A stretch of 64,000 bases of DNA from Dolichospermum sp. DET69. GTDB lineage: Bacteria > Cyanobacteriota > Cyanobacteriia > Cyanobacteriales > Nostocaceae. Positions 2,329 through 39,179 of the stretch are shown piece after piece; position 1 is the first letter of the stretch, and each line of letters begins with the position of its first letter. The notes beneath the pieces are model-generated. The model saw only the letters and a program-made list of their open reading frames with translations, had not been told where the DNA came from and ran no database searches. Made by a program: the position numbers and the translations under genes. Where the stretch lies: NCBI GenBank assembly GCA_017355425.1, contig CP070233.1, positions 1,715,501 through 1,779,500 of the forward strand. The letters are read 5' to 3'.

Positions 2329-2784
2329 ATGACTGTCTACACAACTGGTTCACTTAAGGCGGAATTAAACGACCGTGGCTGGCGTTTAACTCCACAGCGC
2401 GAAACAATTCTTCATATTTTTCAAGAACTCCCCCAGGGTGAGCATTTAAGCGCAGAGGATTTGTATCATCGCTTAGAAACTGATAGTGAAGGGATTAGTT
2501 TGTCAACTATCTATCGCACTTTGAAGTTAATGGCGAGAATGGGTATTTTGCGGGAGTTAGAATTGGGTGAAGGGCATAAACATTATGAAATTAATCAGCC
2601 TTATCCCCATCACCACCATCACCTAATTTGTGTCCGCTGTAACTCGACTATTGAGTTTAAAAATGACTCAATTTTAAAGATTGGCGGAAAAACAGCGCAA
2701 AAAGAAGGGTTTCATTTATTAGATTGTCAAATGACAATTCATGCTGTGTGTCCCCAGTGTCAAAGGGCGTTGATGCCACTTTAG
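2329..2784 (+). CDS. fur: Ferric uptake regulator FurA
   Basis: Fe(II)-dependent repressor of iron uptake genes, 151 residues. The winged-helix DNA-binding domain covers about residues 10-85, with recognition segment ISLSTIYRTLKLM. The dimer/metal domain follows, with the histidine run PYPHHHHHLICVRC and cysteines C101, C104, C133, C141 and C144. This five-cysteine layout is that of Anabaena FurA, a heme- and redox-responsive regulator. The frame extends upstream to a TTG at 2311, but the ATG at 2329 gives the family N-terminus MTVYTT and the family length. The gene is convergent with the cell-wall-binding gene at 2922-4022. Confidence 0.92.
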   Translation: MTVYTTGSLKAELNDRGWRLTPQRETILHIFQELPQGEHLSAEDLYHRLETDSEGISLSTIYRTLKLMARMGILRELELGEGHKHYEINQPYPHHHHHLICVRCNSTIEFKNDSILKIGGKTAQKEGFHLLDCQMTIHAVCPQCQRALMPL

Positions 2785-2921
2785 CAATTGATGATGGATA
2801 ATTAGCAATTACCAGCCTCAATTTAGATAACTAAGAACTTTGGATTACAGGGATAGACATCTGCAATTTTGGAGGATGAACCAAGTGGTGGGGGAATCTG
2901 AGTACATTGAGAAAGCGGGAA

Positions 2922-4022
2922 TTAAAAACTTCCGCTTTTAACATCCTTAAGACTGATACCATAAAATTCTTGAGCGCGACTAATTGCTTTTTTGGTATCA
3001 GATGCCATCATGCCGTTGATTTGACCTTTATAGAAACCTTTTTCTTGTAGTCGTCTTTGGATTTCTAAAGTAGTAAAATCACTTTTGGCAGAATTTTTAA
3101 CTAAACTATATAACTTAGCGCGGGTAGTTTGTCCAGCCATGCCGTTAGTTTCTAGTTGATGCTGTTTTTGAAAGCGATTTACGGCATCAACTGTGTTAGA
3201 ACCGTAGTAACCATTGGGTTGATTTTGCAAAAATCCGGCTTTAATTAAGTGTTCTTGCAGGACTCTAACTGCTTCACCGCGATCGCCTAAACTAAGTATA
3301 TCTCGATTATCTGATTTTTGAGAAGTAGTAGTTATTTCATTTTCATCATTCACTGCTGGTAATTTAGCTAATGTGGATTTACCAACAACACCATCAACGG
3401 TGAGGTTATAAGCTTTTTGAAATCGTTTTACAGCTTCTTGAGTAATTGGCCCAAAAATCCCTGTGGAATTGCCATAATAAAAACCAGCGATTTTCAAACG
3501 TTCTTGTAAAACTTTGACATCTGCACCTTCATCACCTTTAACAAAGAGATTGGGGTTTTTACGCTTGTTGCTAACGGAAATAATATTATTTGGGGTCCTG
3601 GGGGTTATCGGGGCTGTACTAATAATTTGGTCATTGGTTATTTCCATCTGAGATGTCGAATTTTGTTCTACATTGTTGACAGAATCACCGTTATTTTTGG
3701 CTGTAATCTGAGATGTCAAATTTTGTTCTAGATTGTTGACAGAATCACCGTTATTTTCAGTTGTAATCTGAGATATCCAATTTTGTTCAAGATTTTTGAC
3801 AGCAGCACTTTGATTAACTTTTTCTAGGGCAAAAACACTACTAACATTATTCAAAATAGATATAGTCAGAGCAAGGGGAATCATATATTTCCACGCATTG
3901 CTAGAAAAGAGTTGCCAATTTGGTGCGGCTGCTTTTTTCAATAAAGAACTGAGGGATATTAACTCAGTAGTTTCTTCGTCTTCGTTGGCGAAAGCTAAAT
4001 GTAAATACGCAAGGTTTTCCAT
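2922..4022 (-). CDS. Cell-wall-binding protein with three PG_binding_1 repeats
   Basis: 366-residue protein with a cytosolic N-terminus, one membrane segment at about 45-66, a spacer of near-identical repeats (VNNLEQN-TSQIT-NNGDS, about 75-130), then three peptidoglycan-binding-1 modules at about 162-222, 245-310 and 318-360. Each carries the FQKxxxL or equivalent helix and a G-x-x-G turn; the third is short and lacks the usual end. It probably anchors to peptidoglycan; no catalytic domain is present. It sits tail-to-tail with fur. In Anabaena PCC 7120 the equivalent gene (alr1690) is co-transcribed with an antisense RNA covering furA, so read-through here would do the same. Confidence 0.8.
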   Translation of the reverse strand: MENLAYLHLAFANEDEETTELISLSSLLKKAAAPNWQLFSSNAWKYMIPLALTISILNNVSSVFALEKVNQSAAVKNLEQNWISQITTENNGDSVNNLEQNLTSQITAKNNGDSVNNVEQNSTSQMEITNDQIISTAPITPRTPNNIISVSNKRKNPNLFVKGDEGADVKVLQERLKIAGFYYGNSTGIFGPITQEAVKRFQKAYNLTVDGVVGKSTLAKLPAVNDENEITTTSQKSDNRDILSLGDRGEAVRVLQEHLIKAGFLQNQPNGYYGSNTVDAVNRFQKQHQLETNGMAGQTTRAKLYSLVKNSAKSDFTTLEIQRRLQEKGFYKGQINGMMASDTKKAISRAQEFYGISLKDVKSGSF

Positions 4023-4397
4023 ATCCGTTTCCTAAATTAAGTAGTTAGACAAAATTAAATTCACTCGTGGAGAGAGGTAACAGGGAAAACTTTCTTCTTT
4101 CTTGTTTATTCTCCTGACTCCACAAGAGGGGCAACCACGGGGGGATTGCCCCTACCTGACAGGTGTAGGTTTTTAATATTCTCTGTAAAGGCAAGACCAG
4201 GAAGACAAGGAGGGATAGTAGACAAGGAAGATTTTATCCATAAAATACCCAATTTATGGTTTGTTTTATGACCAATCATCCATTTCTTGTCCGGTTTTCC
4301 TCCCTTGTCACCTTGTCTGCCTTGTCTTCCAAGTCCTGTCCTCACCCAATTGTAAAAAACCTACACCTGTCAGGGGATTGCCCCTACTCCTATATAA
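4023..4397. other. Intergenic region built of nested repeats
   Basis: This 375-bp gap carries a copy of a roughly 150-bp dispersed element (about 4190-4345) flanked by an outer inverted repeat, CTGACAGGTGTAGGTTTTT at 4156-4174 and its complement at 4355-4373. A minus-strand frame of 79 codons crosses it but is composed of repeat sequence and is not accepted as a gene. Confidence 0.7.
4190..4345 (-). repeat. MITE-like dispersed element, copy 1
   Basis: About 155 bp that matches, in reverse complement, the segment at about 55,716-55,870. The two ends are imperfect inverted repeats (GGACAGGACTTGGAAGACAA and a related CAAGACCAGGAAGACAAGG). There is no coding capacity. The second copy is inserted in another repeat whose uninterrupted form is seen at 46,221-46,345. 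Confidence 0.7.
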
Positions 4398-7300
4398 TTA
4401 TGTTTCTTCGATAGTTGCTTCTGCTTGATGGACTAAATTGCGGAGATTTTCTAGGGTTTGTATATTTGCATCTTGCCATAATCCGCGCTGGTTTGCTTCT
4501 AGTAGTCTTTCGGCAATATCGCGCAATGCCCAGGGATTTTTGTTTTGGATAAATTCACAAACGGTGGTATTTTCTAAGTATGCCTCGACGACTCCTTGAT
4601 ACATATAATCTTCGACACATTGGGCGGTAGCATCGTAAGCGAAGAGAAAATCTACCGTTGCAGCCATTTCAAATGCACCTTTATAACCATGACGCATAAC
4701 TCCAGCTATCCATTTAGGATTAACTACGCGGGAACGATAAACTCTGGCAATTTCTGAACTAAGTTGACGGACTTTAGGGGCTTGTGTATTGGAATTATCA
4801 CCAAAGTAGATTTCAGGATTTTTACCTTGAAGAGAACGCACGGCTGCGGTTAAACCACCCTGAAATTGATAATAATCATCGGAGTCGAGTAAATCATGTT
4901 CTCGGTTATCTTGATTATGCAGCACGATTTGCATTTGCTTCAAGCGTTGCTCAAGAGCTTCAATATTACTGTTCCCAGTTAAGAGTTCCCTGTTCCCTGT
5001 TTCCCCAGAATAAGCGTAAGCACTCCAGTTGATGTAAGCTTGGGCTAAATCCTGGTCATCTTCCCAGTTTTGGGAAGCAATTAAGCCTTGGAGTCCTGCA
5101 CCATAAGCCCCTGGTTTAGAGCCAAAAACGCGATATTGCGATCGCTCGGCTGCTGCTTCTAAGGATAAACCCTCTTGAGTCCATTGTGCAGTTTCTTGGC
5201 GAACTGTATCTGCAAGGGGATTTTGATCTGCTGGTTCATCTAAGGAGGAGACTGCTTTCACGGCTTGATCAAATAAACTGATTAAATTAGGGAAAGCATC
5301 TCGGAAAAAACCGGAAATTCTCAAAGTGACATCTACACGGGGACGACCGATAATGGATAAGGGTAAAATTTCAAAATCTACGACTCGTCGCGCTGCACCA
5401 TCCCACACAGGTTGAACACCGAGTAAGGCTAATGCTTCAGCTATATCATCACCACCAGTCCGCATGGTAGCTGTCCCCCACACGGATAAACCGAGGGTCT
5501 TGGGATATTCTCCGTGTTCTTGGGTGTAGGTTTCAATTAGGGTTTCGGCGGCTTTTCTGCCGATATCCCAGGCGGTTTCTGTGGGAATGGCACGAATATC
5601 AACGGCGTAAAAGTTTTTACCTGTGGGTAGGACTTCGGGGCGTCCGCGGGTGGGTGCGCCAGAAGCACCACTGGGAACGTATTTGCCATCAAGTCCCCGT
5701 AATAGGTTGGTGGTTTCTTCACTGGTTTTTTGCAGGGCTGGGAGGAGTTTTTCTTGTATCCAGTTAAGGGTTTGGGTAATTGGTAATTGGTAATTTTCTC
5801 TTGACTCCTGACTCCTGACTCCTGACTCCTCAATAATTTTTTCTACTAAGTGGGCGGCTTCTGTTTCTAGGAGTTCGACAACATCACCGATAATGCGACA
5901 AGAGTTAAGTCTCACGCAAAGGCGCTCAGGCGCAGAGAGGGGGGTGGAAAGGTCATCTGTGAGGGGATCTATGTCTAAGTTCCATTGTTGGGCTATGGCG
6001 CGAGTGATGCCGGAGGAATAGCGGTTGGGGATGCGAGCGATCGCAATTATTAAGTCTCGTAGTTGCGTTCCTTGGGGACATTGACCAAATATGTGTAAGC
6101 CGTCGCGGATTTGGGCTTCTTTGAGTTCGCACAAGTAACCGTCTAGGGAATTTAAGATTAAGGTTTCAAAGTTTTCAATGTCTTTTTTATCTGTAATTCC
6201 TAAATCTTTATAGAGGTTTTCTTTGATGACGAGTTCTTGAATGCGATCGCGTATTGTTGGTAATCTGGAAGGGTCTAAACTTTCGGCTTCGTAATATTCA
6301 TCAATGAGGTTTTCTACTTGTTGCAATCCTCCATATAATTGAGCGCGGGTCATTGGTGGTGTTAAATGATCAATAATTACAGCTTGGGCGCGTCTTTTTG
6401 CCTGTGAACCTTCACCGGGATCATTAACAATAAATGGATATAAATGGGGCATTGGTCCAAAGGCAATTTCTGGATAACAAGTATTAGATAAAGCGACACT
6501 TTTTCCCGGTAGCCATTCTAAATTACCATGTTTGCCCACATGAACTATGGCATCAGTAGCAAAAGATTCGCGCACCCAATGATAAAAGGCTAAATAATTA
6601 TGTGTGGGTTCTAAATCTGGCGCATGATAATTTAAACTAGGGTCAAGATCGTAACCTCTTGATGGTTGAATTCCTACAAAAATGTTACCAAATTGAATTC
6701 CGGCAATTGGCAAATTTTGAATTGAATTTGGTTCACCCCAACGGGCAATAATTTCTTTTTGTATTATTTCGGGTAAGGTAGAAAAATATTTTTGATATGC
6801 TTCTATTGATAAACTTTGCTGGATTGGTTTCCAGTCTCTGCCTTCTGGATCATTGGTAATGCTAGATGTGAGAATTTGAATTAATTCGTCTCCAGTTTCG
6901 GGAATATTTTCTAGTTGATAACCTGCTAATTTTAAAGCTTTGAGAATTTCTACACAACTGGCTGGAGTGTCCAGTCCTACGCCGTTGGCAAGGCGGCCGT
7001 TGGTATTGGGGTAATTTGCTAAAATTAGAGCTATGCGGCGTTCTTGGGGCGGTTTTACCCGCAATCGTACCCAGTTTGCAGCCAGGTGGGTAACGAATTC
7101 AATGCGATCGCTCACTGGTTCATAAACTACCACATCGGTTTCTAGTTTATTATTACGAGTTTGCAAAGTTTTGAAGGACACAGCCCGGCTAATAATTCGC
7201 CCGTCTACTTCTGGTAATGCCACGTTTATCGCCATGTCACGGGGTGTTAAACCTTCTAATTGTGATTCCCATTGTTCAACAGAACTGGCACAAAGAATTA

Positions 7301-8222
7301 CTTGCAAAACAGGAACATTTAACTTTTCCCAAATTTCAGTTTGTGGTGTTTCTGTTTCTAAACTTGCTAGGGAAAAACTGGTGGTATTCATCAATAAACT
7401 AAGATGATGATCATCTTTAGCTGCAAACAATTCATACAGTTTTTCAGTAACCCCAGGTTCCCGTAATGAAGAAACAAAAACAGGCACAGGTTGTAAATTT
7501 TTCTCTATTAAAGCTGTACATAAAGCATCAATAACTTTAGTATTTCCTGATAAATAATGAGCGCGATAAAATAAAATTCCAATTTTGGGCTGAGGAGAAA
7601 CAGGTGAGAAATAACTCCTTCTTTCTGACTCCTGACTCCTGACTGGGCGCAGGACCTGCGCCCCTACCTCCTCCTTCCATTCATACAATCCTACACGGGG
7701 AACTGATTGTGGTGGTGGGGGATTGAACGCTGTTAATAGGGATGTATCAGTAATAAATTGCAACGCGTTGAGGAAATTTTCTACGCCACCTTGTTGAAAG
7801 TATTGCCAAATTTTTTTAACAATTTCTGGAGAAAGTGTAGATTTAGAGATTAAATCAAGATCAAGTCCATCATCTCCTGGCATAACAATCAAGGTTGTGC
7901 CATTACGTTGTCCAATTTCTTGGACAACTTCTAAGCCATAAGCCCAGTAGGAACTTCCTCCTATGAGACGAAGCACAATTACTTGAGCAGATTCTAAAAC
8001 TTTTTCAGCATAATCATCTATACTTATTTGTTGCTGTAGTTGTAGCAGATTAGCTACTCTTAATTCAGGGAATTGGTTAGGTAATTTGGGAACTACAGCC
8101 GCTAGGGTTTGAATATCAGTATCTGCTGCTGTAATCAATATGAAAGGGGCAGGAGTTTGCTCAAGAAAAAATAAACCTTCTGACTGATTCAATCCGCCTG
8201 GTGTGGCACTGATTCGGTGCAT
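4398..8222 (-). CDS. cobN: Cobaltochelatase CobN / magnesium chelatase H-like subunit
   Basis: Large subunit (1274 residues) of the ATP-dependent chelatase inserting cobalt into hydrogenobyrinic acid a,c-diamide in aerobic B12 synthesis. The CobN core motif HVGKHGNLEWLPGK is near residue 560, and the C-terminal half carries the conserved GLDGKYVPSGASGAPTRGRP and SVWGTATMRTGGDDIAEALA blocks. The length fits the family. In cyanobacteria CobN-like and ChlH proteins coexist; the overall pattern fits CobN better, but ChlH-like use cannot be excluded. Oddity: low-complexity segments at about residues 197-208, 797-812 and 1080-1090 (RSQESE, EESGVRSQESRE, ETGNRELLTGNS) are encoded by GACTCCT and TTCCCTG tandem repeats also found in intergenic DNA, apparently tolerated in-frame insertions. 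Confidence 0.88.
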   Translation of the reverse strand: MHRISATPGGLNQSEGLFFLEQTPAPFILITAADTDIQTLAAVVPKLPNQFPELRVANLLQLQQQISIDDYAEKVLESAQVIVLRLIGGSSYWAYGLEVVQEIGQRNGTTLIVMPGDDGLDLDLISKSTLSPEIVKKIWQYFQQGGVENFLNALQFITDTSLLTAFNPPPPQSVPRVGLYEWKEEVGAQVLRPVRSQESERRSYFSPVSPQPKIGILFYRAHYLSGNTKVIDALCTALIEKNLQPVPVFVSSLREPGVTEKLYELFAAKDDHHLSLLMNTTSFSLASLETETPQTEIWEKLNVPVLQVILCASSVEQWESQLEGLTPRDMAINVALPEVDGRIISRAVSFKTLQTRNNKLETDVVVYEPVSDRIEFVTHLAANWVRLRVKPPQERRIALILANYPNTNGRLANGVGLDTPASCVEILKALKLAGYQLENIPETGDELIQILTSSITNDPEGRDWKPIQQSLSIEAYQKYFSTLPEIIQKEIIARWGEPNSIQNLPIAGIQFGNIFVGIQPSRGYDLDPSLNYHAPDLEPTHNYLAFYHWVRESFATDAIVHVGKHGNLEWLPGKSVALSNTCYPEIAFGPMPHLYPFIVNDPGEGSQAKRRAQAVIIDHLTPPMTRAQLYGGLQQVENLIDEYYEAESLDPSRLPTIRDRIQELVIKENLYKDLGITDKKDIENFETLILNSLDGYLCELKEAQIRDGLHIFGQCPQGTQLRDLIIAIARIPNRYSSGITRAIAQQWNLDIDPLTDDLSTPLSAPERLCVRLNSCRIIGDVVELLETEAAHLVEKIIEESGVRSQESRENYQLPITQTLNWIQEKLLPALQKTSEETTNLLRGLDGKYVPSGASGAPTRGRPEVLPTGKNFYAVDIRAIPTETAWDIGRKAAETLIETYTQEHGEYPKTLGLSVWGTATMRTGGDDIAEALALLGVQPVWDGAARRVVDFEILPLSIIGRPRVDVTLRISGFFRDAFPNLISLFDQAVKAVSSLDEPADQNPLADTVRQETAQWTQEGLSLEAAAERSQYRVFGSKPGAYGAGLQGLIASQNWEDDQDLAQAYINWSAYAYSGETGNRELLTGNSNIEALEQRLKQMQIVLHNQDNREHDLLDSDDYYQFQGGLTAAVRSLQGKNPEIYFGDNSNTQAPKVRQLSSEIARVYRSRVVNPKWIAGVMRHGYKGAFEMAATVDFLFAYDATAQCVEDYMYQGVVEAYLENTTVCEFIQNKNPWALRDIAERLLEANQRGLWQDANIQTLENLRNLVHQAEATIEET

Positions 8223-8383
8223 AATTAGTAATTAATAATGGAAATTTTCAGTTTAAAACTTTGGCTTTTTTACGTTAGCATTAAATGAGGCAATAAATAA
8301 ATTTATTGTCAGGTCACAGATGCTATAATTTCATTATTCTGTGAAGAATTAAGAATTAAACCGCCGTTTTAATGGAGGATTTT

Positions 8384-8659
8384 ATGCAAGTTAAAATTGA
8401 GTTACCTGATGAGTTGGGAAAACAACTTTTGGAAATGCCTGATATGCAGCTATTAGTACAGAAAGCTGTGGAAAAAATATTATTAGAAGAACAAAGCAGA
8501 CGAGCCACCCATGATTTATTAGTTGAACAGAGAGAATTGTTACACCAAACTAGCAATGATGAAATTTTGCCAATTACGCGATCTCTAGTTGGTATATTGA
8601 AAGGTTCTCATGTTGATGTAGCAGACTATAAAAAACATTTAGAGGAGAAGTATCTTTGA
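8384..8659 (+). CDS. Putative antitoxin of a VapBC-like pair
   Basis: Small protein of 91 residues starting QVKIELPDELGKQLLEMPD, followed by an acidic/basic helix. The first 25 residues look like a strand-helix entry of antitoxin type, but no standard DNA-binding motif is certain. The frame can start at 8372, but the ATG at 8384 follows GGAGG (8374-8378) at ideal spacing. Its TGA overlaps the TTG start of the next gene (TTGA), a layout typical of co-translated toxin-antitoxin genes. The antitoxin role is inferred from the partner. Confidence 0.6.
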   Translation: MQVKIELPDELGKQLLEMPDMQLLVQKAVEKILLEEQSRRATHDLLVEQRELLHQTSNDEILPITRSLVGILKGSHVDVADYKKHLEEKYL

Positions 8660-9081
8660 AAATTGTATTTGATACAAATATTGTTCTTGATATTTTGCTA
8701 GAGCGTGAGCCTTTCGTTAGTTTCTCTATTAATTTATTTAATGCTGTTGAGAAGCAAATTATTCAGGGTTATCTTTGTGCGACAACAATAACTACGATTG
8801 ATTATTTATTAACTAAATCAATAGGAAAGCAGTCAGCCAAGGTTTCTATTAATAAATTGCTTAATTTATTTGCGATTGCAGAGGTTAATGATGTGATATT
8901 GAAAGCGGCGATAAATTCAGATTTTTCTGATTTTGAGGATGTTGTTTTATATCATTCAGGCATTTATGCGGGTGTTGATGGTTTTGTAACTCGAAATAGC
9001 AAGGATTTTAAAACTGCTAGTTTGCCTATTTATAGTCCAACTGAATTATTAAGAATTATTCAAGAAATAAAGGATAACTGA
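8656..9081 (+). CDS. PIN-domain ribonuclease toxin (VapC-like)
   Basis: PIN-domain protein of 141 residues. It opens with KIVFDTNIVLDILLEREPF, where the first catalytic aspartate lies in the FDTN signature. Further acidic residues (SDFEDVVLY and the later GVDGFVTRNSKDF) complete the Mg-binding site expected for an RNase toxin. Translation starts at TTG, overlapping the upstream stop by four bases, with GAGGAG upstream. Target RNA is unknown. Confidence 0.8.
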   Translation: MKIVFDTNIVLDILLEREPFVSFSINLFNAVEKQIIQGYLCATTITTIDYLLTKSIGKQSAKVSINKLLNLFAIAEVNDVILKAAINSDFSDFEDVVLYHSGIYAGVDGFVTRNSKDFKTASLPIYSPTELLRIIQEIKDN

Positions 9082-9116
9082 CAGTATTTCATTACAACTT
9101 TTAGAGGATATCAAAC

Positions 9117-9791
9117 ATGACTAATTTACCAAAAGGATTAATTGTTTCCTGTCAAGCGCCTGTAAATTCTCCATTACATGATCCTTATATAATTGCTGCA
9201 ATGGCACAAGCCGCAGTTAATAATGGGGCTGTAGCTGTGAGAATTGATACGCCCATTCATATCCAAGCTGTGCGGAAAAAAGTCCAAGTTCCGATTATTG
9301 GACTGTGGAAACAAATAATAACTGGTTCTGATGTTTACATTACACCACAGTTTCATCATGCTGTGGCTGTGGCTGAGGCAGGTGCAGATATTATTGCTAT
9401 AGATGCTACTATTAGAAATCGTCCCTGTAATGAACAGTTAGCAGATATTATTACCCTAATTCATCAACAATTAAACAAGCCAGTTATGGCAGATGTAGAT
9501 ACTTATGAAGCTGCACAATTGGCGGTTAGTTTAGGTGTAGATATTGTAGGAACTACTTTATTTGGTTACACTGGGTCAACTCAAAAATTTTCTCCTCCGG
9601 GTTGGGAATTACTCACCCAAATCATCGAAAATCTTGATACTTTTGTGATTTGTGAAGGGGGTATTTCTTCCCCAGAAATGGCTAAAAAAGCCTTAGATTT
9701 AGGTGCTGATGCTGTTGTTGTTGGTGGAGCAATTACGGGAATTGATTTGTTAGTTAAAGCTTATGATTCGGCATTAAGTAAGCATAATTAA
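9117..9791 (+). CDS. nanE: N-acylglucosamine-6-phosphate 2-epimerase NanE
   Basis: TIM-barrel enzyme of 224 residues interconverting N-acetylmannosamine-6-phosphate and N-acetylglucosamine-6-phosphate. Family signatures are GLIVSCQAP at the N-terminus, PIIGLWK, ADIIAIDAT, MADVDTYEAA, and the phosphate-binding EGGISSPEMAKKALDLGADA-VVVGGAITG end. Length is usual. No other sialic acid genes are near, so it probably serves amino-sugar salvage. The short gap after it carries a dispersed repeat. Confidence 0.88.
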   Translation: MTNLPKGLIVSCQAPVNSPLHDPYIIAAMAQAAVNNGAVAVRIDTPIHIQAVRKKVQVPIIGLWKQIITGSDVYITPQFHHAVAVAEAGADIIAIDATIRNRPCNEQLADIITLIHQQLNKPVMADVDTYEAAQLAVSLGVDIVGTTLFGYTGSTQKFSPPGWELLTQIIENLDTFVICEGGISSPEMAKKALDLGADAVVVGGAITGIDLLVKAYDSALSKHN

Positions 9792-19945: not shown

Positions 19946-20365
19946 CTATTTTTCTCCTCTAGCTTCCCGTGCGGCTTGAATGCGTTTAGCGATCGCACTT
20001 ATTTGATCACTAGCCGCTTGATCTAAACTATCAGCAAATGCCGCAATTACATCAGGATTTCCTACTGCTAAAAAACGTTGTAGTTGATCATGTGCTTTAA
20101 TCACATCTGCTTGTTGTTTAGTGAGCAAAGGCCGCCAATAAAAGGCTTTTCCCTGTTTATCACAAGCTAACCAACCTTTTTCCGTGAGCCGACGGAGAAC
20201 GGTGGTAACGGAAGTATAAGCTAATTCGCGGTTAGGATCAGCAAGAATGCGATCATGGACATCTTTGACTGTTGCTGAACTCAGTTCCCAGACAATGCTG
20301 AGGATTTCGGCTTCTAGGGGACCGACGGACATTTGTTTGGGACGATAATCTGGTAAGGGAGCCAT
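19946..20365 (-). CDS. BlaI/CopY-family repressor, PetR-like
   Basis: 139-residue winged-helix repressor of the penicillinase-repressor family: MSVGPLEAEILSIVWELSSA opens the helix-turn-helix, followed by AYTSVTTVLRRLTEKGWLA and a helical dimerization tail. It is directly upstream of, and nearly overlaps, an M56 protease gene, the classic BlaI-BlaR pairing. In Synechocystis the equivalent PetR represses or activates the plastocyanin/cytochrome c6 genes according to copper. Copper function here is inferred from the pair and from the nearby copMRS genes. Confidence 0.78.
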   Translation of the reverse strand: MAPLPDYRPKQMSVGPLEAEILSIVWELSSATVKDVHDRILADPNRELAYTSVTTVLRRLTEKGWLACDKQGKAFYWRPLLTKQQADVIKAHDQLQRFLAVGNPDVIAAFADSLDQAASDQISAIAKRIQAAREARGEK

Positions 20366-20496
20366 GTTGATGATTTAGGGGTGGTTATACTTTTATATTT
20401 TCGCATTTTTCTCACGCAAAGGCGCGAAGAGATTATAAAGTTGAAGAGGAGATGCTTTAAAAATAAGAATGTATTCTAGTGACAATCTTATTATCA

Positions 20497-20547
20497 GACA
20501 TTAACGACCGAGAACAATGGCTAAAAGCCCATTCAAAATCATAGCTC
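20497..20547 (+). pseudogene. Remnant 3' end of a sixth Rpn-family copy
   Basis: Sixteen codons in one frame (DINDREQWLKAHSKS, then TAG at 20,542-20,544) followed by the same CTC spacer and ATG as between the intact copies. The intact copies end DINDLEQWLKAHTEL-TAG-CTC-ATG. This is the truncated tail of a former upstream copy of the array. Confidence 0.8.
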
Positions 20548-21408
20548 ATGCACACAGACACTATATTTTATCAAATCTTCCTCACCTTCCACACTCTGTT
20601 ATTTGAACTTCTCGGACAACCAACAGAAAATGCTCAAGGTTATAATTTTACCTCCGTTGAAGTCAAAGAAAAAGCTTTTCGATTTGATGGTATTTTTATG
20701 CCTGATAGTTTGCAAAAGCCTATCTATTTTGTAGAAGTTCAATTTCAAAACAAACCAGAATTTTACTGGGAATTAATTACAGAAATAAACATTTATCTCA
20801 ATCAATATAAACCCTCGCAAGATTGGCAAGCCATAGCTTTATTTGCTAAACGTAGTTTAGATGTAGAAGTATTAACTCCTTATCAACAAGAATTAGTTAA
20901 TAGTGGTCGTATCAAACGCATTTATTTAGATGAAATCCCACCAGGTTCAATAGGTATGGGATTAATTGAATTAATTCTGAGTAAAGAAACTCAAGCTCCA
21001 GAATTAGTTCAAAACCTGATGCAAAGAACAAAAACAGAGATTACCAATTCTACAGAAAAACAAGGTATTATAGAGTTATTGGAAAGCGTTTTGGTATCGA
21101 AGTTTTCAAAATTAACCCGTCAGGAGATTGAAGCGATGTTTTTAGTAAGTGATATCAAACAAACTAGGGTATATCAAGAAGCAAAGCAGGAAGGTAAACA
21201 GGAAGGTAGACAAGAAGGTAGACAAGATGAAGCAATTAACTTACTGGTGCGAATATTATCCAAGCGATTTGGGAAATTGACCCATAGCTACATCGAAAAT
21301 ATCAACAAACTCACCATAGCGCAACTAGAAGACCTGGGAGAAGCATTATTAGATTTTGTGGATATTAACGACCTGGAACAATGGCTAAAAGCCCACACAG
21401 AATTATAG
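20548..21408 (+). CDS. Rpn-family recombination-promoting nuclease, array copy 1
   Basis: 286-residue protein of the Rpn / transposase_31-like PD-(D/E)XK family. The nuclease core has D47 in FRFDGIF and E63-x-Q65 in FVEVQFQ. A central helical part is followed by a QEG repeat linker (three units here) and a C-terminal DUF4351-like domain (NLLVRILSKRFGKL...). Such proteins are annotated as putative transposases but act as DNA nucleases that promote RecA-independent recombination. The gene begins 3 bp after the remnant of another copy; no clear Shine-Dalgarno sequence is present, so translation may depend on coupling. Confidence 0.8.
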   Translation: MHTDTIFYQIFLTFHTLLFELLGQPTENAQGYNFTSVEVKEKAFRFDGIFMPDSLQKPIYFVEVQFQNKPEFYWELITEINIYLNQYKPSQDWQAIALFAKRSLDVEVLTPYQQELVNSGRIKRIYLDEIPPGSIGMGLIELILSKETQAPELVQNLMQRTKTEITNSTEKQGIIELLESVLVSKFSKLTRQEIEAMFLVSDIKQTRVYQEAKQEGKQEGRQEGRQDEAINLLVRILSKRFGKLTHSYIENINKLTIAQLEDLGEALLDFVDINDLEQWLKAHTEL

Positions 21409-21411
21409 CTC

Positions 21412-22296
21412 ATGCACACAGACACTATATTTTATCAAATCTTCCTCACCTTCCACACTCTGTTATTTGAACTTCTCGGACAACCAACAGAAAATGCTCA
21501 AGGTTATAATTTTACCTCCGTTGAAGTCAAAGAAAAAGCTTTTCGATTTGATGGTATTTTTATGCCTGATAGTTTGCAAAAGCCTATCTATTTTGTAGAA
21601 GTTCAATTTCAAAACAAACCAGAATTTTACTGGGAATTAATTACAGAAATAAACATTTATCTCAATCAATATAAACCTCAACAAGATTGGCAAGCCATAG
21701 CTTTATTTGCTAAAGGTAGTTTAGATGTAGAAGTATTAACTCCTTATCAACAGGAATTAGTTAATAGTGGTCGTATCAAACGCATTTATTTAGATGAAAT
21801 CCCACCAGGTTCAATAGGTATGGGATTAATTGAATTAATTCTGAGTAAAGAAACTCAAGCTCCAGAATTAGTTCAAAACCTGATGCAAAGAACAAAAACA
21901 GAGATTACCAATTCTGCAGAAAAACAAGGTATTATAGAGTTATTGGAAAGCGTTTTGGTGTCGAAGTTTTCAAAATTAACTCGTCAGGAGATTGAAGCGA
22001 TGTTTTTAGTAAGTGATATCAAACAAACTAGGGTATATCAAGAAGCAAAGCAGGAAGGTAAACAGGAAGGTAGACAAGAAGGTAGACAAGAAGGTAGACA
22101 AGAAGGTAGACAAGATGAAGCAATTAACTTACTGGTGCGAATATTATCCAAGCGATTTGGGAAATTGACCAATAGCTACATCGAAAATATCAACAAACTC
22201 ACCATAGCGCAACTAGAAGACCTGGGAGAAGTATTATTAGATTTTGTGGATATTAACGACCTGGAACAATGGCTAAAAGCCCACACAGAATTATAG
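21412..22296 (+). CDS. Rpn-family recombination-promoting nuclease, array copy 2
   Basis: 294 residues, nearly identical to copy 1 (D47, E63, Q65 intact). The linker has five QEG(K/R) units, two more than copy 1. It carries the TNSAEKQGIIELLES variant, and GEVLLDF near the end where other copies have GEALLDF. The stop of copy 1 and this ATG are separated by CTC only. Confidence 0.8.
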   Translation: MHTDTIFYQIFLTFHTLLFELLGQPTENAQGYNFTSVEVKEKAFRFDGIFMPDSLQKPIYFVEVQFQNKPEFYWELITEINIYLNQYKPQQDWQAIALFAKGSLDVEVLTPYQQELVNSGRIKRIYLDEIPPGSIGMGLIELILSKETQAPELVQNLMQRTKTEITNSAEKQGIIELLESVLVSKFSKLTRQEIEAMFLVSDIKQTRVYQEAKQEGKQEGRQEGRQEGRQEGRQDEAINLLVRILSKRFGKLTNSYIENINKLTIAQLEDLGEVLLDFVDINDLEQWLKAHTEL

Positions 22297-22299
22297 CTC

Positions 22300-23172
22300 A
22301 TGCACACAGACACTATATTTTATCAAATCTTCCTCACCTTCCACACTCTGTTATTTGAACTTCTCGGACAACCAACAGAAAATGCTCAAGGTTATAATTT
22401 TACCTCCGTTGAAGTCAAAGAAAAAGCTTTTCGATTTGATGGTATTTTTATGCCTGATAGTTTGCAAAAGCCTATCTATTTTGTAGAAGTTCAATTTCAA
22501 AACAAACCAGAATTTTACTGGGAATTAATTACAGAAATAAACATTTATCTCAATCAATATAAACCTCAACAAGATTGGCAAGCCATAGCTTTATTTGCTA
22601 AAGGTAGTTTAGATGTAGAAGTATTAACTCCTTATCAACAAGAATTAGTTAATAGTGGTCGTATCAAACGCATTTATTTAGATGAAATCCCACCAGGTTC
22701 AATAGGTATGGGATTAATTGAATTAATTCTGAGTAAGGAAACAAAAGCTCCAGAATTAGTTCAAAACCTGATGCAAAGAACAAAAACAGAGATTGGTAAC
22801 GACAGTGAAAGACAAGGTATTATAGATTTACTGGAAAGTGTTTTGGTGTCGAAGTTTTCAAAATTAACTCGTCAGGAGATTGAAGCGATGTTTTTAGTAA
22901 GTGATATCAAACAAACTAGGGTATATCAAGAAGCAAAGCAGGAAGGTAAACAGGAAGGTAGACAAGAAGGTAGACAAGAAGGTAGACAAGATGAAGCAAT
23001 TAACTTACTGGTGCGAATATTATCCAAGCGATTTGGGAAATTGACCAATAGCTACATCGAAAATATCAACAAACTCACCATAGCGCAACTAGAAGACCTG
23101 GGAGAAGCATTATTAGATTTTGTGGATATTAACGACCTGGAACAATGGCTAAAAGCCCACACAGAATTATAG
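22300..23172 (+). CDS. Rpn-family recombination-promoting nuclease, array copy 3
   Basis: 290 residues, nuclease residues intact, four QEG units in the linker. It differs from copies 1, 2 and 4 by the block GNDSERQGIIDLLES, which it shares with copy 5, but has SKETKAPELV in common with copy 4. This patchwork suggests exchange between copies. Confidence 0.8.
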   Translation: MHTDTIFYQIFLTFHTLLFELLGQPTENAQGYNFTSVEVKEKAFRFDGIFMPDSLQKPIYFVEVQFQNKPEFYWELITEINIYLNQYKPQQDWQAIALFAKGSLDVEVLTPYQQELVNSGRIKRIYLDEIPPGSIGMGLIELILSKETKAPELVQNLMQRTKTEIGNDSERQGIIDLLESVLVSKFSKLTRQEIEAMFLVSDIKQTRVYQEAKQEGKQEGRQEGRQEGRQDEAINLLVRILSKRFGKLTNSYIENINKLTIAQLEDLGEALLDFVDINDLEQWLKAHTEL

Positions 23173-23175
23173 CTC

Positions 23176-24072
23176 ATGCACACAGACACTATATTTTATC
23201 AAATCTTCCTCACCTTCCACACTCTGTTATTTGAACTTCTCGGACAACCAACAGAAAATGCTCAAGGTTATAATTTTACCTCCGTTGAAGTCAAAGAAAA
23301 AGCTTTTCGATTTGATGGTATTTTCATGCCTGATAGTTTGCAAAAGCCTATCTATTTTGTAGAAGTTCAATTTCAAAACAAACCAGAATTTTACTGGGAA
23401 TTAATTACAGAAATAAACATTTATCTCAATCAATATAAACCTCAACAAGATTGGCAAGCCATAGCTTTATTTGCTAAAGGTAGTTTAGATGTAGAAGTAT
23501 TAACTCCTTATCAACAGGAATTAGTTAATAGTGGTCGTATCAAACGCATTTATTTAGATGAAATCCCACCAGGTTCAATAGGTATGGGATTAATTGAATT
23601 AATTCTGAGTAAGGAAACAAAAGCTCCAGAATTAGTTCAAAACCTGATGCAAAGAACAAAAACAGAGATTACCAATTCTGCAGAAAAACAAGGTATTATA
23701 GAGTTATTGGAAAGCGTTTTGGTATCGAAGTTTTCAAAATTAACCCGTCAGGAGATTGAAGCGATGTTTTTAGTAAGTGATATCAAACAAACTAGGGTAT
23801 ATCAAGAAGCAAAGCAGGAAGGTAAACAGGAAGGTAGACAAGAAGGTAGACAAGAAGGTAGACAAGAAGGTAGACAAGAAGGTAGACAAGATGAAGCAAT
23901 TAACTTACTGGTGCGAATATTATCCAAGCGATTTGGGAAATTGACCAATAGCTACATCGGAAATATCAACAAACTCACCATAGCGCAACTAGAAGACCTG
24001 GGAGAAGCATTATTAGATTTTGTGGATATTAACGACCTGGAACAATGGCTAAAAGCCCACACAGAATTATAG
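23176..24072 (+). CDS. Rpn-family recombination-promoting nuclease, array copy 4
   Basis: 298 residues, the longest copy, with six QEG units in the linker. Nuclease residues are intact. It carries TNSAEKQGIIELLES as in copy 2 and SKETKAPELV as in copy 3. SYIGNINKL replaces SYIENINKL near the end. Confidence 0.8.
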   Translation: MHTDTIFYQIFLTFHTLLFELLGQPTENAQGYNFTSVEVKEKAFRFDGIFMPDSLQKPIYFVEVQFQNKPEFYWELITEINIYLNQYKPQQDWQAIALFAKGSLDVEVLTPYQQELVNSGRIKRIYLDEIPPGSIGMGLIELILSKETKAPELVQNLMQRTKTEITNSAEKQGIIELLESVLVSKFSKLTRQEIEAMFLVSDIKQTRVYQEAKQEGKQEGRQEGRQEGRQEGRQEGRQDEAINLLVRILSKRFGKLTNSYIGNINKLTIAQLEDLGEALLDFVDINDLEQWLKAHTEL

Positions 24073-24075
24073 CTC

Positions 24076-24894
24076 ATGCACACAGACACTATATTTTATC
24101 AAATCTTCCTCACCTTCCACACTCTGTTATTTGAACTTCTCGGACAACCAACAGAAAATGCTCAAGGTTATAATTTTACCTCCGTTGAAGTCAAAGAAAA
24201 AGCTTTTCGATTTGATGGTATTTTTATGCCTGATAGTTTGCAAAAGCCTATCTATTTTGTAGAAGTTCAATTTCAAAACAAACCAGAATTTTACTGGGAA
24301 TTAATTACAGAAATAAACATTTATCTCAATCAATATAAACCTCAACAAGATTGGCAAGCCATAGCTTTATTTGCTAAAGGTAGTTTAGATGTAGAAGTAT
24401 TAACTCCTTATCAACAAGAATTAGTTAATAGTGGTCGTATCAAACGCATTTATTTAGATGAAATCCCACCAGGTTCAATAGGTATGGGATTAATTGAATT
24501 AATTCTGAGTAAGGAAACTCAAGCCCCAGAATTAGTTCAAAACCTGATGCAAAGAACAAAAACAGAGATTGGTAACGACAGTGAAAGACAAGGTATTATA
24601 GATTTACTGGAAAGTGTTTTGGTGTCGAAGTTTTCAAAATTAACTCGTCAGGAGATTGAAGCGATGTTTTTAGTAAGTGATATCAAACAAACTAGGGTAT
24701 ATCAAGAAGCAAAGCAAGAAGAAGCAACAAACTTACTGGTACGGATGTTATCTAAGCGGTTTGGGAAATTGACCAATAGCTACATCGAAAATATTAACAG
24801 TCTGACCATAGCGCAACTAGAAGACCTAGGAGAAGCATTATTAGATTTTGTAGATATTACCGACCTAGACGAATGGCTAAAATCTCACAACTAA
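24076..24894 (+). CDS. Rpn-family recombination-promoting nuclease, array copy 5
   Basis: 272 residues, the shortest copy: the QEG repeat linker is absent (AKQEEATNLLVRM). The last 60 codons are the most diverged of the array (RMLSKRF, NINSLTIAQ, ITDLDEWLKSHN), as expected if the array grew by duplication from this end copy or if the end copy escapes homogenization. Nuclease residues D47, E63 and Q65 are intact. Confidence 0.8.
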   Translation: MHTDTIFYQIFLTFHTLLFELLGQPTENAQGYNFTSVEVKEKAFRFDGIFMPDSLQKPIYFVEVQFQNKPEFYWELITEINIYLNQYKPQQDWQAIALFAKGSLDVEVLTPYQQELVNSGRIKRIYLDEIPPGSIGMGLIELILSKETQAPELVQNLMQRTKTEIGNDSERQGIIDLLESVLVSKFSKLTRQEIEAMFLVSDIKQTRVYQEAKQEEATNLLVRMLSKRFGKLTNSYIENINSLTIAQLEDLGEALLDFVDITDLDEWLKSHN

Positions 24895-24989
24895 GCTACT
24901 GTTTTTAAATTTTAATTTCACCCTTGCGGTACTGGCTTATAATTGCCAAGGGGCTTATGCTCCTGTACTCGTAAGTCCAAGGGGGATAG

Positions 24990-26513
24990 ATGACAATTAA
25001 ACGGTTGCTGTTAATTGGGCTAACTTTGTTAGCAATAATGTTGTCAGGGTTATCTTTATTAAATAGCTGGCAAAAACCTCAATTCCAGAGTCGTCTAGAA
25101 TTGTACCAGACTAATATTGTCTTACAAGCCCAAGCATGGCAACCAGAAGATAGCAGCGACAAGAGTATTCAAACAATTCAAGAATCTATTCTCGGTGCAA
25201 ATCCCATAGAAAGCGCAATAAAGCAATATCAAACAGCGAGTAAATCTGTTCAAACAAGTTTAGAGACAACTAATACAAAATTAGTAAAACTGCAATCTTC
25301 AGCAGATCTTCCTATTTCCGCAGAGGAGAAAAGTTTACAAAAATCTCAACAGCAACAAGAAAAATTATTAGCGGAAGTAGATTTGCGGTTAGGAATTTTG
25401 CAAGCACAGCAACAGGAAACGGACAACGCAATTAAAACTTGGAGTCAGTTACAGCAATATTCAGATATCAACTCCAAATATCCAGAAACTGCTCAAGTTT
25501 TAAGTGGAATGTGGAGTAAACCTCCGCGTCTCTTCCCCAAAGCTGAACAACTTATTCAACAAAACTTAGATACTTGGTTTCGTTCTACAGCTTTAGAGCA
25601 ATTATATCAAGTTCAACAACGTCAAGAAGCCCTATCAGCTTTGAAAATTGCCCAACAAGAAGCGGCAACCCAAGCATTGTTAAAATTAGCGATAATTGCC
25701 ACTATACCTACCTTAACAGCTTTTATTGGGCTAATACTGTTGATTTTCTTATTCGGTCAACGCTTACTCAAAGGTCGAGAATCCTTTCTAGCGATAAATA
25801 GCGATTTAGTTTGGTCAACTCCTTGGAATTGGGAAATAATTATTCAAGTTTTCATCCTCGGCTTTTTCTTAATGGGGCAATTATTTATACCAGAATTATT
25901 ATCTATTTTGCCTATTCCCCGTGGTACAGGTAATGCCAAAATTGAGGCTTTTACGGTTTTAGTCAGTTATCTATTAGTGTCTTTAGGTTGTTTCTCTGTT
26001 CTATATTTTTCCATTAGACGTTTTTTCCCCCTTCCCGAAAACTGGTTTCGCTTCAATTTCTTCAGTAATTGGTTTTTGTGGGGATTTGGTGGCTATTGTA
26101 CAGCTTTACCAATTGTGGTGATAGTATCACTGATTAATCAAAAATTATGGCAAGGACAAGGTGGCAGTAATCCACTTTTGCAAATGGCACTGGAAAGCCG
26201 GGATAATACGGCATTGGGTATATTTTTCTTTACCGCAGCCATAGCCGCACCGTTGTTTGAAGAAGTCCTATTTCGGGGCTTTTTATTACCATCTTTGACT
26301 CGTTATACCTCTGTTTGGGGGGCAATTTTCGTCAGTAGCTTGTTATTTGCGGCTGCTCACCTGAGTTTATCAGAAATACTCCCGCTTACAGCATTGGGAA
26401 TAGTCTTAGGAATAGTTTACACGCGATCGCGCAATTTACTTTCTTCTATGCTTCTCCACAGTCTTTGGAATAGTGGCACATTAATTAGTTTATTTCTTTT
26501 AGGTAGTCAGTAG
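24990..26513 (+). CDS. CPBP-family intramembrane glutamic protease
   Basis: 507 residues. An N-terminal membrane anchor (about 5-25) is followed by a long periplasmic or cytosolic coiled-coil region (about 60-225, rich in Q, E and K) and then about eight membrane helices. The CPBP/Abi motifs are at the C-terminus: FEEVLFRGFLLP (EExxxR), FAAAHLSLSE, and HSLWNSGTL. The family includes CAAX-type proteases and bacteriocin-immunity proteins; the substrate is unknown. The last codons (LFLLGSQ) lie in the first unit of a 28-bp tandem repeat that continues past the stop. Confidence 0.82.
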   Translation: MTIKRLLLIGLTLLAIMLSGLSLLNSWQKPQFQSRLELYQTNIVLQAQAWQPEDSSDKSIQTIQESILGANPIESAIKQYQTASKSVQTSLETTNTKLVKLQSSADLPISAEEKSLQKSQQQQEKLLAEVDLRLGILQAQQQETDNAIKTWSQLQQYSDINSKYPETAQVLSGMWSKPPRLFPKAEQLIQQNLDTWFRSTALEQLYQVQQRQEALSALKIAQQEAATQALLKLAIIATIPTLTAFIGLILLIFLFGQRLLKGRESFLAINSDLVWSTPWNWEIIIQVFILGFFLMGQLFIPELLSILPIPRGTGNAKIEAFTVLVSYLLVSLGCFSVLYFSIRRFFPLPENWFRFNFFSNWFLWGFGGYCTALPIVVIVSLINQKLWQGQGGSNPLLQMALESRDNTALGIFFFTAAIAAPLFEEVLFRGFLLPSLTRYTSVWGAIFVSSLLFAAAHLSLSEILPLTALGIVLGIVYTRSRNLLSSMLLHSLWNSGTLISLFLLGSQ

Positions 26514-26704
26514 GGGCGTATTTCTTTTAGGTAATCAGTAGGGGCGTATTTCTTTTAGGTAGTCAGTAGGGGCGTATTTCTTTTAGGTAATCAGTAGGGG
26601 CGTATTTCTTTTAGGTAATCAGTAGGGGCGTATTTCTTTTAGGTAATCAGTAGGGGCGTATTTCTTTTAGGTAATCAGTAGGGGCGTATTGCAATACGCC
26701 CCTA
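26493..26704 (+). repeat. Seven 28-bp tandem repeats ending in a perfect hairpin
   Basis: Seven units of TTTCTTTTAGGTAATCAG-TAGGGGCGTA run from 26,493 to 26,688. The first unit contains the last six codons and the stop of the CPBP protease gene; units 1 and 3 have GTAGTC instead of GTAATC. After the last unit TAGGGGCGTATTG-CAATACGCCCCTA forms a perfect 13-bp inverted repeat (about 26,679-26,704) that could act as a terminator. Confidence 0.92.
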
Positions 26705-27322: not shown

Positions 27323-27508
27323 ATGCAAATTCTTAAATACAAACAGATCAATTTGCTCATTTTGCTAATTATGAGTATTGCGTATTTTAGTATAGTATCA
27401 GATTGGGAAATCAATTATTTTTGCAAAAGCTTGATTTTGATGTTGCCATTACAATTAACTACTATAATTTACACTATCAAAATCAGGGATAAGTCGTCTG
27501 AACTATGA
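27323..27508 (+). CDS. Small hypothetical membrane protein
   Basis: About 61 residues from the ATG at 27,323 (a TTG at 27,305 is possible). Two hydrophobic segments, INLLILLIMSIAYFSIV and SLILMLPLQLTTIIYTI. No family is recognised. The last 16 codons lie in the first unit of a roughly 100-bp direct repeat, so the C-terminus may be recent. It is 24 bp downstream of the TM2 gene on the same strand; whether it is expressed is uncertain. Confidence 0.4.
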   Translation: MQILKYKQINLLILLIMSIAYFSIVSDWEINYFCKSLILMLPLQLTTIIYTIKIRDKSSEL

Positions 27509-27757
27509 TTTTTTTTGATTTAGATGATTTTTATGATTTGAAGAAGAGAATCTCACTAGTTTCGGTAACTGCTATAATTTACACTATTAAAATCGTCTGA
27601 ACTATGATTTTTTTGATTTAGATGATTTTTATGATTTGAAGAAGAGAATCTCACTAGTTTCGGTAACTGCTATAATTTACACTATCAGAATCATCTGAAC
27701 TATGATTTTTTTGATTTAGATGATTTTTATGATTTGAAGAAGAGAATCTTACTTATT
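27457..27757 (+). repeat. Three direct repeats of about 98-110 bp
   Basis: Units begin at 27,457, 27,567 and 27,665 with AACT(A/G)CTATAATTTACACTAT and continue through CTGAACTATGATTTTTTTGA and GATTTGAAGAAGAGAATCT. The first unit has 12 extra bases after AAAATC; the third stops after GAGAATCTTAC. Each unit contains TATAAT, so the array multiplies a possible -10 element. The first unit overlaps the end of the small membrane gene. Confidence 0.85.
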
Positions 27758-37511: not shown

Positions 37512-39179
37512 TTACTCAGGATTTTTTTCTTCTTCCTTGATTTGGCGTAACTTTTGGATGAGTTTTTGATTAGATTCAGTAGATACAGCGGGAGAATCAC
37601 TACTTGGTGTCGCCGACTTAACAGGATCAGGAGTATTTACTGCTGGAGTTCCAGAGGAATTTTGAGTATTCTGGGGTTCAGGTAATTTTTTAAGATTCAG
37701 AGTTGCAGAAGGTTGTACTTTCAGTTCAGGTAATTTTTTAGAATCTGATGTTCCTGAAGGTTGTATTTTCAATTCAGGTAATTTTTTAAGATTCAGAGTT
37801 GCAGAAGGTTTGATTTGAGATTCAGGTAATTTTTCAGTATTTGGTGTGACTGAAGGTTTGATTTGAGATTCAGGTAATTTTTCAGTATTTGGTGTGACTG
37901 AAGGTTTGATTTGAGATTCAGGTAATTTTTCAGTATTTGGTGTTGCTGAAGGTTTTATTTGAGATTCAGGTAATTTTTGAGTATTTGGTGTTGCTGAAGG
38001 TTTTATTTGAGATTCAAATACTTTTTCAGTATTTGTTGTAACTGAAGGTTGAATCTTAGAACTTACTCCCGAAGCATTAGGATTATTTTGGAACTTTAGT
38101 TGAAAAGGATAAGAGCTAATTACTTGCTTATCAGCTTGAGGTGGATTAGCACTGAAAAATTCTCGAACTTTAGATTGTAACTTCGGCGATTCTGTTCCTT
38201 CTTGAAACTTAATATCTAAAACCTTACCATCTGAATCTACAACTAATCTACCTACAACTGTGCCTTCCATCTCTAGTGTATCTGTAGAGATGGTTTCACG
38301 AATTACCCCTTTCTCTTTGATATTGGGATATTCTTGACGAATGTTTTGTCTAAGAGTGTTGTATGAGTTCAATTTAGCGAATTGTTCAGTTCTCTGACCT
38401 TTTGAGTCAGACTCATTTCTGAGAATTTCTGGTGATTTCCCCTTAGAATTATCTACTAAAGCTATTTTTTCCCCATCTTGGACAATTTTAACGGCATTAT
38501 TTTCTGATTCCACTGTTTGTGGTGGTGAAATTCCTACTGTTGTTGAACTTCCAATATCAATAGGTTCAGCGGATGGATTATTCAGTGGTTCTCCAGGTAT
38601 GTCATTATTTTGTCGAAGTTCTGGTAACCTATTAATACCTAGAGATCCAGTTTCTCGCATTCCCTGATCTAGATTATTGACCAAAGGTGAAATAGAGGAA
38701 ACAGAGGGAGTATATGTGCTTCTTGGCAATCTAGACATTGCTCTCTGTAAGTCATTGCGAGTCAATCTTTCAATAGATTGCCTAGTAGGCAGGTAAGAGA
38801 GGTTATAATTAGTTAGCGAGCTAGGAATAGCTGGTAATACAGGCTGATTAGATAATTCTGTTTGTAAAGGGGGATAGTTAGTTAATGGGCTACCCAAATT
38901 AGTGCCTGGTAGTTGTTGTTGTATCGGTAGTTTAGGCTGCTGTAAGGCTACTGGGGATGTACTAGGAGGTTGTGGTAATCGGCTTTGATCAGCGGTACTC
39001 AATTCCATCAGTCCTACTGCTTTAGGTGAGTCAGCTTTTGAAGATGCACTAGTGTTAACTGGCATTAATGGCACAATTAAAGCAATAGCACCGTGAATAC
39101 CAAGAGAGGCTATGGCGGCTATTCCCGTTGGTTGGCTTAATATTTCTGGTATATTTTTGAAGATGGATACGTAAGACAT
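37512..39179 (-). CDS. TonB-like energy transducer with C-terminal repeat tail
   Basis: 555 residues: short cytosolic N-terminus, one membrane helix at about 17-38 (IAAIASLGIHGAIALIV), a long Pro/Ser/Gln-rich spacer, and a TonB-C-like domain at about 275-365 (GTVVGRLVVDSDGKVLDIKF...). The usual TonB protein ends there; this one continues with about seven or eight 16-residue repeats (LPESQIKPSATPNTEK), an extended Pro-rich tail. It may couple to outer-membrane receptors, but no ExbB/ExbD or receptor gene is nearby. Confidence 0.65.
   Translation of the reverse strand: MSYVSIFKNIPEILSQPTGIAAIASLGIHGAIALIVPLMPVNTSASSKADSPKAVGLMELSTADQSRLPQPPSTSPVALQQPKLPIQQQLPGTNLGSPLTNYPPLQTELSNQPVLPAIPSSLTNYNLSYLPTRQSIERLTRNDLQRAMSRLPRSTYTPSVSSISPLVNNLDQGMRETGSLGINRLPELRQNNDIPGEPLNNPSAEPIDIGSSTTVGISPPQTVESENNAVKIVQDGEKIALVDNSKGKSPEILRNESDSKGQRTEQFAKLNSYNTLRQNIRQEYPNIKEKGVIRETISTDTLEMEGTVVGRLVVDSDGKVLDIKFQEGTESPKLQSKVREFFSANPPQADKQVISSYPFQLKFQNNPNASGVSSKIQPSVTTNTEKVFESQIKPSATPNTQKLPESQIKPSATPNTEKLPESQIKPSVTPNTEKLPESQIKPSVTPNTEKLPESQIKPSATLNLKKLPELKIQPSGTSDSKKLPELKVQPSATLNLKKLPEPQNTQNSSGTPAVNTPDPVKSATPSSDSPAVSTESNQKLIQKLRQIKEEEKNPE
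37680..38060 (-). repeat. 48-bp tandem repeats within the TonB-like gene
   Basis: About eight units of 48 bp (CAGGTAATTTTTCAGTATTT... on the plus strand), each coding 16 residues, so copy number can change without frameshift. Units in the middle are nearly identical; those at the left (gene 3' side) are more diverged. Confidence 0.85.

Follow-up and report, generated by a model that had tools for sequence, protein, structure and literature searches.

The window analysed here, a stretch of 64,000 nucleotides (nt) from Dolichospermum sp. DET69 (contig CP070233.1, positions 1,715,501 to 1,779,500), contains a tandem array of five Rpn-type genes with DUF2887 and DUF4351 domains, which lie head to tail on the + strand at 20548-24894 in the list of open reading frames (ORFs). 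Copies 1 to 5 carry 3, 5, 4, 6 and 0 units, respectively, of a 12-base-pair (bp) repeat encoding four amino acids (aa; EGKQ or EGRQ), and inside each of them is found CAGGAGATTGAAGCG-ATG, a ribosome-site-like sequence followed by a predicted in-frame start. Neither the internal start nor the copy-specific repeat number appeared in the preliminary description of this locus. The genes are probably a tandem set of nested toxin-antitoxin units, coded by their repeats and insulated from each other.

In the proposed arrangement, each copy would produce a full-length PD-(D/E)XK nuclease (RpnL, toxic), and a strong in-frame internal ribosome site would give its own C-terminal domain (RpnS, the antitoxin). 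The array would have been built by unequal exchange and by gene conversion among its copies, and would still be remodelled by both; the nuclease parts would stay near-identical and the 4-aa repeats, in a helix common to RpnL and RpnS, would step by whole units. The copies could then act as self-specific, mutually insulated units on one transcript, probably in phage defence. Support for this comes from a strong codon-level signal, from the role of the repeats in one E. coli protein, and from array statistics in one of three gene types.

The layout is known from E. coli, where rpn genes make the toxic nuclease RpnL and an internally started C-terminal RpnS that neutralises it (Zhong et al. 2023, PMC10327210). 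That study demonstrates the nested layout in genes of E. coli and, with E. coli as the test host, in one from C. difficile, describes separate DUF4351 RpnS genes as well as arrays formed by tandem direct duplication, and reports that RpnP2 protects against phage, reading the Rpn genes as a toxin with an intragenic antitoxin and an anti-phage role. The window genes resemble this system in combining a PD-(D/E)XK gene with a predicted internal start, preceded by a ribosome site, that lies a little ahead of 4-aa repeats of variable number, and differ from it in belonging to a cyanobacterial DUF2887 branch, in forming a five-copy array and in having a different repeat number in each copy.

The array and its internal starts

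As the preliminary description had it, the five genes are near-identical and separated by a constant CTC spacer: all four junctions read TAG-CTC-ATG, with the 3-bp spacer in frame. Pairwise comparison of the copies shows differences at 4-23 nt within their first 642 nt, and copy 5 is 97% identical to copy 3. Ratios of the computed nonsynonymous (dN) and synonymous (dS) values between copies were about 0.05-0.26, pointing to purifying selection. Given the 3-bp junctions, a single transcript across the array is plausible; a promoter scan of 20300-25050 found no usable + strand site. The features of the array are listed in the table.

Table. Features of the Rpn-type array, in window coordinates
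Feature	Position	Strand	Basis
Tail remnant (51 bp), left from the 3' end of an additional copy upstream	20497..20547	+	7/51 positions differ from the tail that is identical at all four junctions
Copy 1, RpnL-like, 286 aa, 3 repeats	20548..21408	+	ORF, domain and TIGR01784 scans
Copy 2, 294 aa, 5 repeats	21412..22296	+	ORF, TIGR01784 scan
Copy 3, 290 aa, 4 repeats	22300..23172	+	ORF, TIGR01784 scan
Copy 4, 298 aa, 6 repeats	23176..24072	+	ORF, TIGR01784 scan
Copy 5, 272 aa, 0 repeats, diverged 3' end	24076..24894	+	ORF, domain scan; TIGR01784 below cut-off
Copy 1, 12-bp repeats x3 (EGKQ EGRQ EGRQ)	21190..21225	+	Tandem repeat scan
Copy 2, 12-bp repeats x5	22054..22113	+	Tandem repeat scan
Copy 3, 12-bp repeats x4	22942..22989	+	Tandem repeat scan
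Copy 4, 12-bp repeats x6	23818..23889	+	Tandem repeat scan
Copy 1, predicted nested RpnS-like ORF, 90 aa	21136..21408	+	AGGAG at 21122-21126
Copy 2, predicted nested RpnS-like ORF, 98 aa	22000..22296	+	AGGAG at 21986-21990
Copy 3, predicted nested RpnS-like ORF, 94 aa	22888..23172	+	AGGAG at 22874-22878
Copy 4, predicted nested RpnS-like ORF, 102 aa	23764..24072	+	AGGAG at 23750-23754
Copy 5, predicted nested RpnS-like ORF, 76 aa	24664..24894	+	AGGAG at 24650-24654

The internal start was examined in a family set of 86 unique proteins, obtained from 130 phmmer hits by requiring the N-terminal motif and a length of 230-400 aa, with the window copies included. The peptide patterns with which the named loci were fetched exclude the internal-start region. 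The internal ATG was kept in all 86 members and preceded in 85 by a Shine-Dalgarno (SD)-like 4-mer; among the other internal ATGs, 12 of 197 have such a 4-mer, and among the 86 main starts, one. Glu193 was encoded by GAG in 82/86 members and in 14 of the 16 representatives less than 70% identical; at other positions, GAG made up 410 of 2414 Glu codons. Codon 192, which encodes Q, E, K, R or V, ended in G in 40/41 representatives less than 90% identical (the exception being one Ser AGC) and in 16/16 of those less than 70% identical. It was the most codon-biased column in both representative sets, with codon 193 ranking second in the <90% set and outside the top eight in the <70% set. Because codon choice at 192 and 193 is itself conserved, constraint on the protein fails to explain the SD-like site. 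At sequence level, the genes carry a predicted internal start that would give the C-terminal domain alone, as in the RpnL/RpnS layout.

The same arrangement recurs outside the family. The internal site of E. coli rpnA, AAGGAG-N6-ATG, has the layout of the window copies, and in two other types of DUF4351 gene, here called D and E, the internal ATG follows AAGGAG(G)AAGTT or close variants (D type) or (A/G)GGAGTTxxTx (E type). The codon-level signal would extend the nested layout to the cyanobacterial DUF2887 branch and, less fully tested, to these two further gene types.

An SD-like site within a gene might instead slow or pause the ribosome, for example as a folding aid, with no second protein made. 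We regard this as improbable, since every family member has a suitably spaced ATG and 85 of the 86 main starts have no SD-like 4-mer, since the layout is that of rpnA, where RpnS is made (PMC10327210), and since the D-type and E-type genes carry the site too. Moreover, at two loci from different genomes (L077 and L079), a gene whose 5' part is lost or disrupted is immediately followed by a small free ORF that has this C-terminal domain.

This free ORF, at 4105-4380 in L079 and on the minus strand in L077, reads MHTDLIFLVNGIKQTR... and joins an RpnL start to the RpnS domain. Between the two free ORFs dN was 0.056 and dS 0.21.

Repeat numbers within and between arrays

In the window copies the first repeat starts 18 residues past the internal Met, inside the range of 8-20 residues published for RpnS (Zhong et al., PMC10327210), and the length of the repeat region equals 3 modulo 4 residues in 42/42 close family members, window copies included. 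For E. coli RpnC, it is reported that RpnC_S with one extra repeat no longer acts on RpnC_LS, and does so again once the numbers match (Zhong et al. 2023, PMC10327210). Repeat number thus governs RpnL-RpnS recognition in that protein and therefore, if this carries over, the window copies should be self-specific and the five units may be insulated from each other. Zhong et al. set the repeats of different strains of one species side by side, and no report of graded numbers within one array was found in their text. A literature search covering few subscription papers found nothing on DUF2887 or on within-array repeat numbers in the titles and abstracts among the matches listed. A comparable effect is that of the TAEL repeats of EcoR124I and EcoR124II (cited in PMC10327210), where the number of 4-aa repeats also alters a molecular specificity, there by setting the spacing of the DNA site and not the pairing of toxin and antitoxin.

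A second array in the source genome shows the graded pattern most clearly. On contig C1 at 2596272-2603027 (2773-9531 of locus L185), seven near-identical Rpn genes of the PDDEXK_2 type (PF12784, one copy scanned) lie in tandem with 7, 6, 5, 3, 4, 2 and 1 GIEK repeats, each integer occurring once and in nearly perfect order. Like the window array, it consists of near-identical tandem Rpn genes that all differ in the number of 4-aa repeats; unlike it, it has the PF12784 domain, GIEK repeats, spacers of 119-125 bp, no clear internal start, and an SD-like site before the main start (three of three main starts examined). Arrays of the same gene in relatives have 4,5,3,6, then 2,1,5,4, and 1,3 repeats, and six genomes have one full copy.

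Equal repeat numbers were found in none of the 34 same-array PDDEXK_2 pairs, compared with 35 of 219 between-genome pairs (permutation p ~0.0004, copies being taken as unrelated and their kinship ignored, as in all the permutations). For three gene types and 16 arrays, 3/72 pairs were equal with 9.7 expected (p 0.0036). The three equal pairs lie in DUF2887 arrays: in L011, where the copies have the same length and different letters, in L067 and in L071. In L067, two copies are identical across the compared N part but five repeats apart.

The D-type genes (L186, L202, L203, L204, L205, L206) and the E-type genes (L188, L207, L208, L209) also form small tandem arrays, in which the 4-aa repeat numbers mostly differ and an internal ATG stands just before the repeats. 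Equal numbers occurred in one of three pairs of L207, and the copies all differ in L188, L209, L187 (by eye) and L210; these five arrays stand outside the permutations, and L208 was not comparable. The D-type singles came from 20 fetched regions, of which 13 were used, six having no match to the regular expression and one having two copies. Left out of every count were copy 2 of L073, copy 5 of L067 (truncated), the disrupted copy 2 next to L012 and an incomplete PDDEXK_2 copy in genome G002.

These numbers could reflect an address by which each nuclease is matched to the antitoxin nested in its own gene, with selection keeping the addresses inside an array different, an idea that we put forward tentatively. 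Distinct addresses would be 0, 3, 4, 5 and 6 in the window and 1 to 7, each once, in the PDDEXK_2 array. Alternatively, it is quite possible that amplification was neutral or favoured for dosage, with ordinary unequal crossing over, drift of the 12-bp repeats by slippage, and no insulation. Repeats of 12 bp are expected to slip, and pairs from different loci at 2-5% divergence differ in repeat number in 19/27 cases anyway, compared with 9/10 same-array pairs. Five proteins lacked a match to the regular expression for length in that comparison and were recovered for the permutations. The DUF2887 and D-type arrays together are not significantly short of equal pairs, a result that fits neutral drift as well. 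The absence of equal pairs from the PDDEXK_2 arrays argues for the other side, as does the purifying selection on the copies.

Several observations weigh against insulated nested units. Distinct numbers inside arrays are significant for the PDDEXK_2 arrays alone: without them, the DUF2887 and D-type arrays have 3/38 equal pairs with 5.0 expected (p 0.25). The D-type arrays by themselves show 0/14 with 1.5 expected (p 0.19, not significant), and an avoidance of equal numbers in DUF2887 arrays was unsupported when these were taken alone, with 3/24 equal and 3.5 expected (p 0.55 when arrays and singles were derived by script, p 0.44 when the lengths were listed by hand). In the PDDEXK_2 genes, one candidate valine was examined as an internal start, and its codon was GTG, GTC or GTA, none convincing; insulation by a nested RpnS is therefore least secure for the gene type in which the ladder is clearest. 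The start signal also weakens at distance: counting by eye in nine homologues on plasmids of other cyanobacterial orders gave the ATG in 8/9 and the ATG with an SD-like 4-mer in 5/9, with the 4-mer at 2/19 of their other internal ATGs. When the 37-row family alignment was compared with the single RpnA sequence by hhalign, a weak C-terminal alignment alone was obtained (probability 3.8). No defence gene was recognised by eye among the neighbouring ORFs of the window, no profile search of these neighbours having been made.

If insulated nested units are the right explanation, one transcript would yield several orthogonal units, and a single phage inhibitor or antitoxin could not silence them all. 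The arrays would also be natural near-isogenic sets of candidate toxin-antitoxin pairs that differ mostly in repeat number, offering material for asking how repeat number sets specificity, how addresses arise and why they are kept different in some arrays.

Origin of the array

Unequal exchange between copies, named as the source of the array in the preliminary description, is a well-supported explanation for its formation, because a tail remnant, mosaic copies and a single-copy locus in a relative are all present. The 51-bp remnant upstream of copy 1, which had been described as what is left of a sixth gene, matches the 3' end of the gene, and in the 60 bases upstream of it just 18 positions match. 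Searching both strands of the window with the tail gave no stretch with 16 or fewer mismatches outside the five known places. No single tree accommodates 42 of the 190 pairs of informative sites among the copies, which suggests mosaicism. Copy number was compared with that in Dolichospermum sp. ST_sed8 (JAKOGY010000387.1, locus L086; L070 is the same stretch, judged by length and matches), as had been suggested: one copy is present there along with a comparable tail remnant, in flanks about 96% identical to those of the window array of five. The coverage of 0.99 given in the name of the ST_sed8 contig speaks against a collapsed array, but is low.

Upstream of this locus, ST_sed8 has a small gene (L086 1479-2036) that is missing from the window (20439-20496). 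A similar ORF occupies the same place in L088 and L079, and the gene on its other side in ST_sed8 is one that we take to be BlaI-like.

An assembly error is an unlikely source of the array, because the source genome (6.04 Mb) is in two contigs and 99.99% complete. Short-read genomes can collapse or break arrays, and contigs G013:C291 and G009:C125 end in or beside arrays; the window copies have copy-specific differences, and like arrays occur in other genomes of few contigs, such as G005 and G006, which leaves an artefact with hardly any credibility.

The preliminary description had also attributed to Rpn proteins a role in promoting recombination, and suggested that the gene product might have driven its own amplification. 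The first part stands as far as it goes, since overexpression of E. coli Rpn raised RecA-independent recombination (Kingston et al. 2017, PMC5350276), and is incomplete, later work reading Rpn genes as a toxin with an intragenic antitoxin (PMC10327210). Self-driven amplification by a recombination nuclease, which the overexpression result could favour and which Zhong et al. (PMC10327210) raise as a possibility, seems very improbable to us. No signature at this locus sets it apart from ordinary homologous exchange, and Zhong et al. report for rpn genes no terminal inverted repeats or target duplications and no evidence of autonomous transposition, explaining the arrays by tandem direct duplication (PMC10327210).

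Family assignment and other features of the window

The assignment to the Rpn family in the preliminary description was borne out by TIGR01784, whose cut-off of 52.1 bits was passed by copies 1-4 (about 61.6, 64.9, 62.3 and 67.4 bits), with copy 5 falling under it at about 36.6-36.9 bits. Domain scans of copies 1 and 5 gave DUF2887 (PF11103) followed by DUF4351 (PF14261). Residues D4, D47, E63 and Q65 are present in all five copies and conserved in 85/86, 86/86, 86/86 and 86/86 family members, respectively, the selecting motif having permitted D, G or N at position 4. Their order is that of RpnA D11, D63, E82 and Q84, where D11A, D63A, E82A and Q84K abolish the phenotypes of RpnA (Kingston et al. 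2017, PMC5350276). This E. coli K-12 protein, also named YhgA, thus shares with the window genes the D, D, ExQ order and the internal AAGGAG-N6-ATG; it differs in belonging to Transposase_31 (PF04754) and not to PF11103, and its N-terminal domain was left unaligned by hhalign. Against a PDDEXK_2 protein, the 37-row family alignment was matched in the repeat and C-terminal part alone (probability ~4).

Among the named strains in the genome contigs searched, the gene has its nearest relatives in Dolichospermum, Trichormus, Anabaena and Sphaerospermopsis. The source genome itself holds 59 matches to the query protein, fragments included, and 47 to TIGR01784, 29 of them above the cut-off. A sequence search of solved structures gave seven matches up to E 10 and no Rpn chain (the RpnS reference, 7TH0, is a three-helix dimer). 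No match was found for copy 3 among the PADLOC models or for copy 5 among the phage records searched. The plasmid search returned 56 records, every one below 60% identity among the matches listed (the best 12 of the 56).

Another DUF2887-DUF4351 gene, diverged and also bearing 12-bp repeats, is located some 23 kb further downstream, at 47954-48868. Other tandem repeats in the window are two adjoining heptamer arrays at 2016-2235 (AGGTAAT x18.1 and AACTGAC x13.3), a 28-bp repeat (x7.1) at 26491-26690, a 98-bp repeat (x2.6) at 27494-27753, and a 48-bp repeat (x7.8) at 37677-38050.

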